DNA of 48,530 bases from Bacillota bacterium (GTDB lineage: Bacteria > Bacillota > UBA4882 > UBA10575), in assembly GCA_012839115.1 (NCBI GenBank), contig DUNX01000098.1, positions 1 through 48,530 on the forward strand, read 5' to 3'. Below are positions 12,528 to 17,603 of this stretch, in pieces. Position 1 is the stretch's first letter. Each line of letters begins with the position of its first letter. A program made the translations under genes and the position numbers. The notes beneath the pieces are model-generated. The model made no database searches, had not been told where the DNA came from, and was given only the letters and a program-made list of their open reading frames with translations.

Positions 12528-12872
12528 CGCACCTGGGTGCTGTTGACACTGCGGGCCTGTGCACCTTCGCGCCCAATAGTTTCCTTTACGCGCCGTCTCT
12601 TTTGAGGAGGATTTTATCTTTCTTCAGCGAAGTCTAAAGCAGGTTGATTATGCCTGGATTGCCAAGGAATGAATTTTTTCTACCAGAATAAGGATACTAT
12701 AACAGAGAGACTGTTCCTATCAATTCGTCTGTATACCATTTTAATATACCTTTGATATCTATTCTGATATCTAAATTATTCTGGTTTTTATCATTCTGAA
12801 ATATATATCATTCTGGTATCTATATCATTCGCAGATTAACCATGACGTTGCAGAGGAGAGAGGAGAATTCAG
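12528..12872. other. Gene-free spacer before the TonB operon
   Basis: 345 bases without a convincing gene, turning strongly AT-rich from about 12660. It contains an inverted repeat AACAG-AGAGA-CTGTT inside a longer imperfect pair (about 12693-12721) and a tract of 17-bp degenerate repeats (12761-12826). A good site AGGAGG at 12605 is followed only by an 18-codon frame lacking a standard start. This spacer must hold the promoter of the downstream operon, but no clear -35/-10 pair is visible. Confidence 0.6.
12761..12834. repeat. 17-bp degenerate tandem repeat
   Basis: Consecutive units start with ATTCTG: 12761-12777, 12778-12792 (15 bp), 12793-12809 and 12810-12826, then a broken ATTCGCAG. 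The best unit is ATTCTGGTATCTATATC. The tract lies about 45 nt upstream of exbB. Confidence 0.75.
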
Positions 12873-13490
12873 ATGTGGCAGACATTTTTAAAGGGTGGCC
12901 CGGTAATGTACCCGCTATTATTATGTTCTGTAATCGTAATCACCATCGCCATTGAACGGCTTTGGTATTTCTTCAGCCATCACGGGGATCTCGACGAAAT
13001 CAAGCGGGTCGTCTTGCGGTTACTTGAAAAGGATGCCCCTCTTGATGCCATACAATATCTCCAAAGAATAAATCACCCGGTAGCCCGGGTCTTACAAGCG
13101 GGACTGGTTTCCTACGGCAAGGATCTTCCGGAAATGGAACAGAACCTTAAAGACTGCGGGGAGTTGGAGATTAGGCGGATGGAAAGGGGGCTTGCCCTCT
13201 TAAACAGCATCATTACCGCCGCTCCCTTGCTGGGACTTTTAGGAACGGTCCTCGGGATTATTAAGAGTTTTCAAATCCTTTCCGTCACGGAAGGGCTGCC
13301 TTCCATGACCGCCATCAGCCGGGGAATCGCCGAGGCTTTGCTTACCACCGCCGCCGGTTTGATCATCGCCGTTCCCAGCCTTTTCATCCTCCACTGGCTG
13401 AATAATTTTGTCCAACGCCGGATCGACCAGATGAACCTTTTCTCTAAAGACCTGTTAGAAGCTTACCGGAACAGGAGGCCGGAACAATGA
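12873..13490 (+). CDS. exbB: ExbB/TolQ/MotA-family proton channel protein
   Basis: ExbB forms the pentameric inner-membrane motor scaffold that, with ExbD, uses proton-motive force to drive TonB. The 205-residue protein has three membrane helices at about 13-33, 112-138 and 152-180, with a cytoplasmic domain between the first two, as in the family. The signature APLLGLLGTVLGIIKSF and the pore-lining ALLTTAAGLIIAVPS segments are present. ATG at 12873 follows GGAGAGAGGAG. The stop overlaps the exbD start by four bases (ATGA), a clear coupling. Tol-type is the alternative, but a TonB protein follows. Confidence 0.93.
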   Translation: MWQTFLKGGPVMYPLLLCSVIVITIAIERLWYFFSHHGDLDEIKRVVLRLLEKDAPLDAIQYLQRINHPVARVLQAGLVSYGKDLPEMEQNLKDCGELEIRRMERGLALLNSIITAAPLLGLLGTVLGIIKSFQILSVTEGLPSMTAISRGIAEALLTTAAGLIIAVPSLFILHWLNNFVQRRIDQMNLFSKDLLEAYRNRRPEQ

Positions 13491-13915
13491 TCTTCAAAAG
13501 GACCCTTCGCCGTGAATCGAGGGTGGATATTGTTCCTTTGATTGATATTATCTTTTTTCTGATGGCCTTTTTCATGTTTTTCACCACGTTCCGGACGGGA
13601 ATTTCCGGGATTCCCATTGAATTACCCCAATCCCAACAGGCTGTGACCTTGGAAGAACAGCGGGTGATAGTCACGGTGAACCCCCAGGGCGAGATTTTTT
13701 TGACGGAGCCGGACCCTATTTCCCTGGAGAAACTGACGGCTACCTTAGAACCGATGGTGGCGCGGCGCCCGGATTTGCTGGTGGTAATTAACGCCGATAC
13801 CCAGGTTAAATATGGCAGGCTGGTTGAGGTTATGGATGCCATAACCGCTGCCGGGGTTAGCCTTCCTGCTCTCGGAGTGGAAAAGAGCGCAAGTGTGCGC
13901 GGGCAAAAAAAATAG
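13487..13915 (+). CDS. exbD: ExbD/TolR-family protein
   Basis: ExbD is the proton-relay partner of ExbB. The 142-residue protein has one membrane helix at about 15-37; the essential acidic residue is Asp20 in VPLIDIIFFL. The rest is a periplasmic domain with the typical ELPQSQQA linker and a compact C-terminal fold ending VEVMDAITAAGV. The start overlaps exbB by ATGA. The essential Asp argues for an active motor. Confidence 0.93.
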   Translation: MIFKRTLRRESRVDIVPLIDIIFFLMAFFMFFTTFRTGISGIPIELPQSQQAVTLEEQRVIVTVNPQGEIFLTEPDPISLEKLTATLEPMVARRPDLLVVINADTQVKYGRLVEVMDAITAAGVSLPALGVEKSASVRGQKK

Positions 13916-13931
13916 AAACGAGGGAGTTGGA

Positions 13932-14720
13932 GTGGGAAGAAAACTCCGCTCACAAGAGAATCTGCGTAGTTTTTACTCCTTCCTCCTGGCTTCAGGGTTG
14001 CATCTCCTTTTCTTTCTCCTCAATTGGGGCGCCCAATGGGGCGTAGAGGCTGGTGATTCCCGGATTATTCCTGTCTACTCCCGGGTGGTAGTGGTGGAAG
14101 AGAAAAAACCGGTCTTCACAGAGACGCCGGCGCCCGTAAAAAAGGACCCCCCGGCGCCGGAGAAGGAGATCCCGCCCGAAAGAGAAGCCAAGGCGGAGGT
14201 GGCCGAGGTTGTACAGGAGCAACCGGCGCCACGACATGCCCCGCCCGTGGAGAAAGAAGAACGGCCGTCCCCGGTTGAGCCACCCGGGGAAGAGACTGAG
14301 ACGCCCACACATGAAGAGGAATTGACCGGTGAAGATCTGGATCCTACCCCCGAAGAAGAGGGTGTGGAGGCGGAGCCGGCCCTGCCACCGCTGGGTGAGG
14401 GCAGGGGGATGGTTGCTTCATATCCGATGACTTACCATAAGGACCTTCAGCATGAGAGGGTCGAAGGCCGTGTCCGCCTGGAGGTTTTTCTTGCGGCTGA
14501 CGGCAAACCCTTGACCGAACCGGTGATTCTCCGGTCTTCCGGCGATGAACGCCTGGATGAACATTGCCTGAAGACGGTAACGAGTTATTGGCGGTTTGAA
14601 CCGGCGCCAGGACCGTACAAGATAACGGTCGAGGTGATTTTTTCGCAGCAGGAACCCCGCCCAAAAATCGAGTTTTTGGGCGATGCCGTTTATTTATCTC
14701 CGGAAGGGGGAGATTCTTGA
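13932..14720 (+). CDS. tonB: TonB-family energy transducer
   Basis: TonB spans the periplasm and transmits motor movement to outer-membrane partners. From GTG at 13932 (after AGGGAG) the protein has 262 residues: a membrane helix at 14-32 that includes the family His (His24 in SGLHLLF), a long Pro/Glu/Lys-rich linker at about 50-160, and a C-terminal TonB domain (about 168-248) with ASYPMTY, EGRVRLEVFLAADG and SSGDERLDEHCLKTV motifs. An in-frame GTG at 13893 within exbD is less likely. In a spore-former this protein implies an outer membrane or a re-purposed transducer. No TonB-dependent receptor is in the window. Confidence 0.9.
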   Translation: MGRKLRSQENLRSFYSFLLASGLHLLFFLLNWGAQWGVEAGDSRIIPVYSRVVVVEEKKPVFTETPAPVKKDPPAPEKEIPPEREAKAEVAEVVQEQPAPRHAPPVEKEERPSPVEPPGEETETPTHEEELTGEDLDPTPEEEGVEAEPALPPLGEGRGMVASYPMTYHKDLQHERVEGRVRLEVFLAADGKPLTEPVILRSSGDERLDEHCLKTVTSYWRFEPAPGPYKITVEVIFSQQEPRPKIEFLGDAVYLSPEGGDS

Positions 14721-14721
14721 G

Positions 14722-16812
14722 ATGAAGAGTTACTGGAAAACCGGGCTGATTCTTTTGGCGGCCATCGTAATTGCCGGCGTAGGAGCGGAAAGCCCGGAAG
14801 ATTCTGGGATCGTTGAAGAAGCCGGTGAACCCTCTGCTGTTGAAAGATTGGAACAGCTCGATCCAAACCGTTTGGTTTTGAGCAATGAATATATTGCGGT
14901 GGCGGTTAATAGATCTCCTGATGGTACCGGCCGGTTTGGGGTAAAAGTCACCGGCGGCGATCCTTACCGGAGCGGAGACGAGGAACAGCCCCTGATCTAT
15001 GGTTTTGAGAACCCCTGGACCTCTTATACAACAATCCAGATTGACGGCAAGGATTATATTTTTGGCGGGCGGACCGGGAAACGTTCAGGCGGCAGCGGTG
15101 AATTTGGCCAGGTGATTGCCGGGCCGGAGCTGGATGAAGAGAAGGGGGTCATCAGAACGGTTTGCCGCTTTGATACTGTCGAGGTAATGCAAGAAATAGC
15201 AGTGGTGGAAAGTACCACAACCCTGCTTCCGGATACCGCCAAAATCCAGTACACCATCATCAACAGGGATGAAAAACCGCGGGAGGTAGGACTGCGGGTA
15301 GTCATCGATACCATGCTCGGTGAGAACGACGGGAATCCTTTCCGCATCGGCGAAACTGCCATTGAAACCGATACCGTCTTTCCCCGGGAGGAACTTCCCG
15401 AATTCTGGCAAGCCTTTGATACCTTGAGCAACCCCCGGGTGATCGCCCAGGGAACCCTGAAAGGCAGGGAAGCCATTCCCCCTGATTACCTCTATTTCAC
15501 CAACTGGGGAACAGTGGCCGATCACCACTGGGACGTACCGTTGGTCAGGGGAAGGGATTTCACCCGGGCCGGCGAGTTTGAACTGGACAGTGCGGCGGTT
15601 TATAAATGGGAGCCGGTTACGGTGGCTCCGGTGGATACCTGTACTTATGTGTTGTATTATGGTTTGGGAGGGGTTACGGTTAAACCCGGGGAATTGCAAC
15701 TGGGCGTGACTTCCCCGGCGGAAATTCCCCTGGTGGCAACGGAGAAGAGTTATTCGATCATCGCGTATATTGAAAACACCGGCGCCGGTCCGGCCATGAA
15801 TGCCCGGGTCCGGCTGAACCTGCCGCGGGGGCTCGTTTTAACCGGGCGGCGCCCCGCCGAGTCGGCTTTGGGCAATATCCGTCCCGGTGAGATTAAACAA
15901 GTCCACTGGGAAATTAAGCCCGACGGTACTGTCACCGGCCAGCTCCAGTTTGATGTGGTGGTCTCTGCCGTAAATCTGCCGGAGAACAGGGCGGTGCGGA
16001 ACATCCGCCTGATCGGCCCGCCAAAGCTGACTTTGACTGTTAAGAACCCGCCGCCCCTGAAGGTTGTCAATGAAAAACTGCAGCCCGTACCTTACCCCCT
16101 GGCGGTAACGGTGAAAAATACCGGTGAATCCTCAGCCTACCGGGTCACAGCCGGTCTCCAACTGGGGCCGGGTATGGAGATGGCCCCCGGTGAACTGCGC
16201 CACAAATATGTGGGGCAGTTGAAGCCCGGTGAAACCTATGACCTGAGCTGGTATTTACTTCCCGAAGCTACGGGAAGCAGGACTTTTCAAGGGATCCGGG
16301 TCGAATCGGAAACCACCGCCCCGGAAATGAGGATCGTCCTGATTGAACTGCCGGTACTTACGCCCAAAGTACGGGTGGTCCCTTTGCGTGGCCGTTATCA
16401 AGCAGGCGATTATTTGGCTGTGGAAATAAGGGCGGAACATATCCCCATGTTAAACGGGGCCTCTTTTGACCTGATCTACGACTCCCAGATCCTCCAGGCG
16501 GAAAGGGTGGAAAGAGGGGTATTCTTTGTTGAGGATGGAGTCCTAACCACTTGGCAACCGGGAGTGATCGACAGAGGAAAAGGCGTGATCCGGGAGGTTA
16601 TGGGGGAGAGAACAACTCCCGGCCGGACCGGAGCACCTTTAGCAACTGTCTATTTTCTGATCAAGGATGAACCAGGAGAGGCAGTAATTAAACCGGAGAA
16701 TATCCGCTTGTGGAGCAACGAGAATAAGCTCCCTGCTTACCTTGTGGAAGGGTTGGTCATCAAAATTTCTCGTGGAGGAGGGGTGGAAATTGTTCCGGTG
16801 CAAGTCGATTAG
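14722..16812 (+). CDS. Secreted cohesin-like domain protein
   Basis: This 696-residue protein begins one base after the tonB stop (ATG 14722, site GGAAGGGGGA). It has a signal peptide (positive start, hydrophobic core at about 7-20, AxA-like end near residue 22). Residues about 40-330 form an unrecognised beta-rich region with few cysteines. Two segments at about 335-430 and 440-540 look like immunoglobulin-like CARDB/DUF11 repeats (NTGAGPAMNARV; NTGESSAYRV). Residues about 550-690 resemble a cohesin fold: YQAGDYLAVEIRAEHI, LNGASFDLIYDSQILQ, LATVYFLIKD. Cohesin folds bind dockerins or act as generic adhesion modules; no dockerin was seen here. Location should be outside the inner membrane. 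Confidence 0.7.
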   Translation: MKSYWKTGLILLAAIVIAGVGAESPEDSGIVEEAGEPSAVERLEQLDPNRLVLSNEYIAVAVNRSPDGTGRFGVKVTGGDPYRSGDEEQPLIYGFENPWTSYTTIQIDGKDYIFGGRTGKRSGGSGEFGQVIAGPELDEEKGVIRTVCRFDTVEVMQEIAVVESTTTLLPDTAKIQYTIINRDEKPREVGLRVVIDTMLGENDGNPFRIGETAIETDTVFPREELPEFWQAFDTLSNPRVIAQGTLKGREAIPPDYLYFTNWGTVADHHWDVPLVRGRDFTRAGEFELDSAAVYKWEPVTVAPVDTCTYVLYYGLGGVTVKPGELQLGVTSPAEIPLVATEKSYSIIAYIENTGAGPAMNARVRLNLPRGLVLTGRRPAESALGNIRPGEIKQVHWEIKPDGTVTGQLQFDVVVSAVNLPENRAVRNIRLIGPPKLTLTVKNPPPLKVVNEKLQPVPYPLAVTVKNTGESSAYRVTAGLQLGPGMEMAPGELRHKYVGQLKPGETYDLSWYLLPEATGSRTFQGIRVESETTAPEMRIVLIELPVLTPKVRVVPLRGRYQAGDYLAVEIRAEHIPMLNGASFDLIYDSQILQAERVERGVFFVEDGVLTTWQPGVIDRGKGVIREVMGERTTPGRTGAPLATVYFLIKDEPGEAVIKPENIRLWSNENKLPAYLVEGLVIKISRGGGVEIVPVQVD

Positions 16813-17392
16813 GAAGGGTCTCTCTTGGGTGCTTCTTTTGCTTCTTCTTTTTGCGCAGCCCGTTTGGGGACAGATTGCCGATCTGCCGCCCGGGCACTGG
16901 GCATATGAGGCTGTAAAAAAACTGGTCGACAAAGGGTACCTCGCATTATACGACGACGGGACTTTCCGGGGAACTTTCCCGGTAGACCGTTTTACCTTGG
17001 CCACGGTTGTTGCCAAGCTGCTTGTGGCAATGGAAGAAGGGCCGGAACCAGCTGATCTGGCCGATGCGGAATTGTTGCGGAAATTGACGAACGAATTCCG
17101 GAGTGAATTGGTTTTGCTCGCCACCAAAGACAAGGAACTGGCAGCAAGAGTGCAGCAGCTTGAAGAGAAACAGCTGATACTCTCCGAAGAGCTGACCAAA
17201 GGCATTGCCGGTCAACGTGAAGAAATAAACCGGTTACTCCAACCGCTGGAGTCGGATTACGCAAGGCTCGAAAGCGAGTTATTGCAATTACGCCGCGATC
17301 TGGAGAAGGAAAAACAGAAGAACCGCACCTATTTATTTATTGCCGGATTCCTTGGCCTGCTGATCGGCTACGGTATCAGCAGCGCCCGGTAG
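16790..17392 (+). CDS. SLH-domain protein with coiled coil and C-terminal membrane helix
   Basis: From TTG at 16790 (six bases after GGAGGAGGGG, overlapping the previous gene) the protein has 200 residues. It has a signal peptide (hydrophobic 12-22, cleavage near residue 27), one S-layer homology domain at about 29-82 (DLPPGHWAYEAVKKLVDKG, DGTFRGTFPVDRFTLA), a charged Glu/Leu/Lys heptad region at about 88-178 predicted to be coiled coil, and a membrane helix at about 181-197. SLH domains bind peptidoglycan-linked polymers. A single SLH plus a C-terminal helix, not a porin barrel, is unlike OmpM; it may tether wall to inner membrane. It is last in the TonB operon. Confidence 0.8.
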   Translation: MFRCKSIRKGLSWVLLLLLLFAQPVWGQIADLPPGHWAYEAVKKLVDKGYLALYDDGTFRGTFPVDRFTLATVVAKLLVAMEEGPEPADLADAELLRKLTNEFRSELVLLATKDKELAARVQQLEEKQLILSEELTKGIAGQREEINRLLQPLESDYARLESELLQLRRDLEKEKQKNRTYLFIAGFLGLLIGYGISSAR

Positions 17393-17395
17393 GAT

Positions 17396-17545
17396 TAGTC
17401 GGTATTGCGGCGGTAAGGTTTGTTTGCATTGCGTCTGATGCGATCCGTTTGTATTGTGCCGGTAAAAATCAGTCTCTATCACATCGGGTAAGTTCCATCT
17501 GTATTGTACCGGCAGGATCTGTCTATATTGCACCCCGCGGGAGCG
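17396..17545. repeat. 25-bp degenerate tandem repeat
   Basis: About six units of 24-25 bp resembling TCTGTATTGTACCGGCAGGA, starting near 17397, 17421, 17446, 17471, 17496 and 17520. The spacing is regular but units differ at several positions. It fills the spacer between the SLH gene and yceD. The period is not a multiple of three, so it is not a coding repeat. Confidence 0.75.
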
Positions 17546-17574: not shown

Positions 17575-17603
17575 TTGACAATGCTCTTTTCCTCGTTTAT
17601 AAT
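17575..17603 (+). promoter_or_regulatory. Consensus sigma-A promoter of yceD-rpmF
   Basis: TTGACA (17575-17580), a 17-nt spacer and TATAAT (17598-17603): an exact consensus. The yceD ATG is only 18 nt after the -10 box, so the leader is very short and just includes the site AGAGGTGA. Confidence 0.92.

Follow-up and report, generated by a model that had tools for sequence, protein, structure and literature searches.

A receptor-independent exbB-exbD-tonB operon with two envelope partner genes in diderm Firmicutes: a candidate for a Tol-Pal-like machine

In Escherichia coli the Tol-Pal system holds the cell envelope together, and its genes follow the order tolQRAB-pal, that is, motor, motor, transducer, periplasmic protein and wall-binding protein. 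The subject of the present analysis is an operon of similar layout in a 48,530-nucleotide stretch of DNA (hereafter the window; contig DUNX01000098.1, assembly GCA_012839115.1) from a Bacillota bacterium. In this operon, exbB, exbD and tonB are followed by genes for two exported proteins, termed P4 and P5, the latter carrying a surface-layer homology (SLH) domain, a coiled coil and a C-terminal transmembrane (TM) helix. In diderm Firmicutes, bacteria of spore-forming type with an additional outer membrane, the operon has about an even chance of encoding a machine with a Tol-Pal-like mode of action that spans the envelope, is powered by protons and needs no receptor.

Several described systems resemble parts of this operon. 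Tol-Pal has been described as confined to Gracilicutes (PMC12204202), as has Pal itself (PMC10628300), and in a recent survey the Negativicutes were the only diderm Firmicutes reported to have Ton systems (PMC12204202). The passages on Ton proteins in the 2009 genome paper of Halothermothrix orenii report ExbBD-TonB without receptors and suggest that the set has another function or that receptors went undetected (PMC2626281). The Thermotoga protein Omp-alpha (OmpA1), which connects toga and wall, consists of an SLH domain, a long coiled coil and about 20 hydrophobic C-terminal residues (PMC3387000).

The operon shares with the Ton system the ExbB, ExbD and TonB families, the channel Thr and Asp residues, the coupling His and the fold of the TonB C-terminal domain; in contrast to that system, the locus has no receptor and pairs the motor with P4 and P5. 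With Tol-Pal it has in common the operon logic (two motor proteins, a transducer, a periplasmic β-rich protein and an anchored wall-binding protein) and a strict link to the outer membrane. However, its ExbD and TonB domains are of the Ton type, P4 is composed of mutarotase, immunoglobulin (Ig) and cohesin modules, and in place of a Pal lipoprotein there is P5, an SLH stalk that carries a TM helix. The OmpM and SlpA tethers possess an SLH domain and a helical stalk homologous to those of P5, but they end in a C-terminal β-barrel where P5 ends in a TM helix. Omp-alpha has the same succession of SLH domain, coiled coil and C-terminal hydrophobic helix as P5; its gene, however, lies beside the porin gene ompB in an apparent operon, and no motor operon is described for it (PMC3387000). 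The H. orenii set is a Halanaerobiales ExbBD-TonB without a receptor, and the passages of that paper cited above mention neither the two partner genes nor how they are distributed nor any homology to tethers (PMC2626281).

Conservation of the operon and its distribution

A scan of 84,980 species gave 189 places encoding relatives of P4, and the best 80 of the 189 were kept and inspected; the records belong to Limnochordia, Halanaerobiales and the Hydrogenispora type, and many come from metagenome assemblies. The full order exbB-exbD-tonB-P4-P5 is present in 69 of the 80 loci, which are from named genomes, and the remaining 11 end at contig ends. The neighbouring genes vary by lineage, with yceD-plsX-fabD-fabG in the window and its relatives, dacF/spoIIA-type genes (names read off the sequences) in about 22 Limnochordia-type loci, and yet other genes in Halanaerobium. 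The five-gene order is far beyond chance, and a chance neighbourhood is ruled out because the five genes stay together while their flanks differ among lineages. The first-pass annotation had joined the last two genes to exbBD-tonB and had given a lack of their conservation beside exbBD-tonB in relatives as a ground for refutation; these loci uphold that grouping, and the open reading frames (ORFs) and Pfam matches confirm the five genes in the place and order it gave. In the class to which the window's genome belongs, P4 is found in 29 of 29 genomes, representing 16 genera, and exbD, tonB and P5 adjoin it in nearly all stretches long enough to show them.

As a separate observation, the Limnochordia-type loci just mentioned (L094, L098, L099, L115, L132 and others) have the operon downstream of dacF-spoIIAA-spoIIAB-sigF-like genes, and in these genomes an envelope operon thus neighbours forespore genes.

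The distribution of the operon follows the outer membrane. The genomes analysed are mostly metagenome assemblies. Among 299 genomes of the phylum, taken as a fixed sample, full-length P4 occurs in 66, all 66 of which encode Omp85, and in none of the 222 genomes without Omp85 (Fisher p ~3e-55, a statistic that is inflated by uncorrected kinship). The earlier description of the host as a diderm Firmicute is likewise supported by the presence of Omp85 and by its relatives, which are Hydrogenispora, Limnochordia and Halanaerobiales. Eleven genomes have Omp85 and no P4: one is incomplete and has relatives that carry P4, one has a sub-cut-off Omp85 match, and nine come from two families (G056, G097, G168, G197, G221, G245, G268, G291 and G314). 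The latter nine are probably Negativicutes; TonB receptors are present in most of them, some being receptor-rich, with up to 15 per genome. Apart from these apparent Negativicutes, which, if they are such, would need another solution, nearly all members with Omp85 carry the operon.

Receptors show no comparable link. The Plug domain of TonB-dependent receptors was found in only 24 of the 66 P4 genomes and was not detected in the other 42, although divergent receptors could escape detection. In the class, the TonB of the operon is present throughout the 29 genomes and a receptor in 21. The operon is independent of receptors and associated with the outer membrane.

The genome of the window does encode one TonB receptor, on contig 116, which could suggest an ordinary Ton system that serves this single distant receptor, with P4 and P5 as unrelated passengers. 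This explanation is very unlikely, as that receptor adjoins its own TonB, short ExbB and ExbD, the majority of P4 genomes are without a detected receptor, and the P4-P5 order is invariant. In a tree of ExbB and ExbD, receptor-linked sets stand apart from operon sets, except for one long branch (L046); grouping the operon motors in one clade was not rejected (approximately unbiased (AU) test, p 0.38). A receptor-serving Ton system was rejected in view of the receptor-free genomes together with the separate receptor-linked set. Consequently, the first-pass statement that no TonB-dependent receptor is present holds for the window and not for the genome, while its view that the motor is not tied to a standard receptor stands; its second ground for refutation, a nearby standard receptor gene set that accounts for the TonB system, was checked and does not apply.

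The neighbourhood of the contig-116 Ton set includes an ArsP_1 permease gene and, at L175:3653-4705, the gene of an OmpA-family protein whose match to DUF4892 is weak. In two other genomes a second TonB C-terminal domain adjoins a short ORF whose similarity to P4 is confined to the cohesin end (G020:C183:5635-7388; G021:C144:13339-14120), the former site also having an OmpA-family protein; these sites may represent a paralogous TonB-cohesin cluster.

The motor, the transducer and the two partner proteins

The residues expected of a working motor are invariant. Channel residues Thr125 and Thr159 of ExbB are present in 74 of 74 alignment rows, the proton-carrying Asp20 of ExbD in 75 of 75, and the motor-coupling His24 in the TM helix of TonB in all 75 rows covering the position. 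These correspond to the proton-path and coupling residues of ExbBD/TolQR-TonB/TolA, and judged by its sequence the motor looks functional. When compared with profiles from the Protein Data Bank (PDB), ExbB matches TolQ (85 bits) and ExbB (82 bits) in a virtual tie, whereas ExbD matches ExbD (85 bits) better than TolR (57 bits). TonB is made up of an N-terminal TM helix, a Pro/Glu-rich linker and a TonB C-terminal domain. The AlphaFold2 model of this domain has a predicted local distance difference test score (pLDDT) of 96-98, and its nearest folds are TonB C-terminal domains (Z 9-10) as opposed to TolA (Z <=6.6).

P4 consists of a signal peptide, a mutarotase-like supersandwich (residues ~45-318), two Ig/CARDB-like domains (~320-540) and a cohesin fold (546-687). 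The AlphaFold2 model of the protein has a mean pLDDT of 88.5 and a predicted template modelling score (pTM) of 0.81. Superposition of single domains with VIA-align was informative: the N-terminal domain resembles galactose mutarotase (GalM) and GH94-type supersandwiches (Z ~16), and the C-terminal one resembles cohesins (Z ~15). Foldseek searches with the whole model returned generic multi-Ig matches with poor superposition. No Pfam model matched the mutarotase-like domain. The cohesin-like call of the first-pass annotation finds no Pfam match in the P4 of the window, but it is supported by this fold and by matches to PF00963 (Cohesin) in 33 of 51 members of the P4 alignment. Conservation is highest in the N-terminal domain and lowest in the cohesin region, where two relatives look degenerate. 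With a lipobox in only 1 of 80 P4 proteins, P4 is most likely a soluble periplasmic protein.

Although P4 shares the cohesin fold with cellulosome cohesins, dockerins (PF00404) are encoded in none of the genomes of its 29 relatives. A cellulosome-type assembly was rejected on this basis, and the cohesin domain of P4 therefore probably binds a partner other than dockerin. The same observation bears on the proposal of the first-pass annotation that the motor may act on an envelope-spanning or surface-adhesion assembly; in the latter, the cohesin and SLH proteins would be displayed outside the cell and moved by the motor, as happens in gliding or surface display. Cohesin and SLH modules are typical of such assemblies, P4-type domains occur in large secreted Bacillota proteins, and the TonB is weakly similar to the gliding proteins GltG/AgmX, although not significantly so (E 0.08-0.6). 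A surface assembly is nevertheless improbable given the missing dockerins, the poor conservation of the cohesin region, and a P5 stalk whose homologues are periplasmic tethers, S-layer proteins giving much poorer matches. The absence of dockerins together with the tether homology of P5 favours an envelope-internal, Tol-Pal-like role over adhesion. A Myxococcus-type gliding motor was rejected separately, as its profile matches are sub-threshold only.

The sugar-enzyme fold at the N-terminus of P4, which also heads large secreted proteins elsewhere, is compatible with uptake without a receptor. Under this alternative, the motor would power import through a channel that is not a TonB-dependent receptor (for example an OmpM-type porin), the ligand being a glycan or another compound; P4 would bind it in the periplasm or at the surface, and P5 would serve as wall anchor. 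OmpM proteins are known to couple tethering with nutrient uptake (PMC10628300). Uptake is nonetheless unlikely: the flanks of the inspected loci show no consistent association of the operon with a transporter, porin or sugar gene, and near-universality of the operon suits a housekeeping role better than a specific substrate.

In Bacillota without Omp85, a domain of the P4 N-terminal type stands, together with Ig-like domains, at the head of very large secreted proteins (Table 1). These are 1247 to >2300 aa long and, judged by eye, are of RHS/YD-repeat, SLH and lipase-like types.

Behind its signal peptide, P5 has a single SLH repeat, a helical stretch that is conserved, a coiled coil and a hydrophobic helix nearly at the C-terminal end, and a lipobox is found in only 3 of 78 P5 proteins. 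The C-terminal helix recurs among relatives, while the length of the coiled coil varies. The P5 profile matches the SLH-stalk part of Veillonella OmpM (8bys, 3e-23) and Deinococcus SlpA (7zgx, 5e-21), and S-layer proteins rank far behind, indicating that the SLH domain and stalk of P5 are homologous to those of these outer-membrane tethers. P5 has no β-barrel, as only the TM helix and a few residues follow the coiled coil. The tail may lie in the outer membrane. If P5 were instead held in the inner membrane, where a single hydrophobic helix without a barrel is more usual, the operon would form an ExbBD-peptidoglycan link acting not on an outer-membrane tether but on wall remodelling or on outer-membrane biogenesis (lipopolysaccharide (LPS), lipid or Bam traffic). 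This arrangement seems doubtful, since Omp-alpha, which has the same architecture and a hydrophobic end of ~20 residues, was found in the Thermotoga toga (PMC3387000).

All five genes lie on one strand and overlap or are separated by a few bases (Table 1). The starts of tonB, P4 (ATG) and P5 are likely those listed, slightly downstream of the starts of the longest ORFs, because a purine-rich site lies upstream of each. A 345-base gap separates purD from exbB, and a perfect promoter precedes yceD; the five genes therefore look like one unit, whose end the yceD promoter probably marks. The A+T-rich gap upstream of exbB contains three copies of a short imperfect direct repeat of 31 nt (12761-12840), and the gap after P5 contains four imperfect 19-nt repeats (17395-17512).

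Table 1. Positions of the operon genes in the window and of related features in the window and elsewhere
Feature	Position	Strand	Description
exbB/tolQ-family motor subunit	12873..13490	+	205 aa; MotA_ExbB 2.1e-29 (Pfam)
exbD/tolR-family motor subunit	13487..13915	+	142 aa; ExbD 1.1e-27 (Pfam)
tonB-family force transducer	13932..14720	+	262 aa from GTG 13932; TonB_C 3.7e-10
P4, exported, probably soluble protein	14722..16812	+	696 aa; CARDB 3e-8 (Pfam)
P5, exported SLH - coiled coil - C-terminal TM helix	16790..17392	+	200 aa from TTG 16790; SLH 9.1e-6
Consensus promoter TTGACA-17-TATAAT before yceD	17575..17603	+	12/12 positions match
Large proteins with P4-type N-terminal domain	L170:5930-12169, L171:3-3743, L172:5009-9487, L173:7054-13998, L174:5562-12305		
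Canonical compact Ton system	G000:C116 (L175:5163-8798)		receptor, TonB, 151-aa ExbB, ExbD

A proposed Tol-Pal-like function and its implications

The operon has the same logic as tolQ-tolR-tolA-tolB-pal, Tol-Pal is described only in Gracilicutes, and no Pal was found above the TIGR02802 cut-off in any of the 299 genomes; the most likely function is therefore proton-driven upkeep or mobilisation of the tethers between outer membrane and wall. Most of the weak matches in the Pal search look, from their length, like flagellar MotB-sized OmpA-domain proteins.

A possible mechanism can be outlined on the Tol-Pal model. First, the proton gradient, tapped by ExbB and ExbD, would power the TonB-type transducer. 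The C-terminal domain of TonB would cross the wall and engage P4, which would occupy the TolB position. P4, in turn, may hold or release P5, in the Pal position, through its sugar-fold and cohesin-fold domains, P5 being an SLH stalk that binds the wall and is anchored in a membrane at one end. Finally, force exerted on this chain would detach tethers between outer membrane and wall, shift them or set them in place again, as might be required when the outer membrane has to keep up with cell growth or division. More tentatively, a TonB paralogue and ExbBD may have been recruited in diderm Firmicutes to move SLH-based tethers by way of a mutarotase-Ig-cohesin adaptor, filling the place of the absent Tol-Pal with a second machine of that kind that was assembled independently.

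Several points weigh against a Tol-Pal-like machine. The length of the TonB linker does not correlate with that of P5 (rho 0.18, p 0.18). The coiled coil of P5 ranges from short to several hundred residues, and the longest exceeds the normal width of the periplasm. The folds of P4 obtained with VIA-align show no sign of a TolB propeller, for which the genomes themselves were not searched. OmpA-family proteins in some relatives could be additional tethers, and an inner-membrane anchor for P5 would make the operon a different device.

In a literature search outside subscription journals, no paper was found that combines a cohesin domain, TonB and ExbD, and earlier notice is possible. The present data add Limnochordia, Hydrogenispora-type and Halanaerobiales genomes to those known to have TonB-ExbBD, and they give candidate partners to the receptor-less Halanaerobiales set that was left unexplained in the 2009 H. 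orenii account as cited here (PMC2626281). The operon comes with partners that are conserved, is distributed in step with the outer membrane and suggests a mechanism that can be tested. It bears on how diderms without Tol-Pal pull the outer membrane inward at division and handle their tethers. It also bears on the loss of the outer membrane in Firmicutes, because a weakened tether has been proposed as a route to that loss (PMC10628300).

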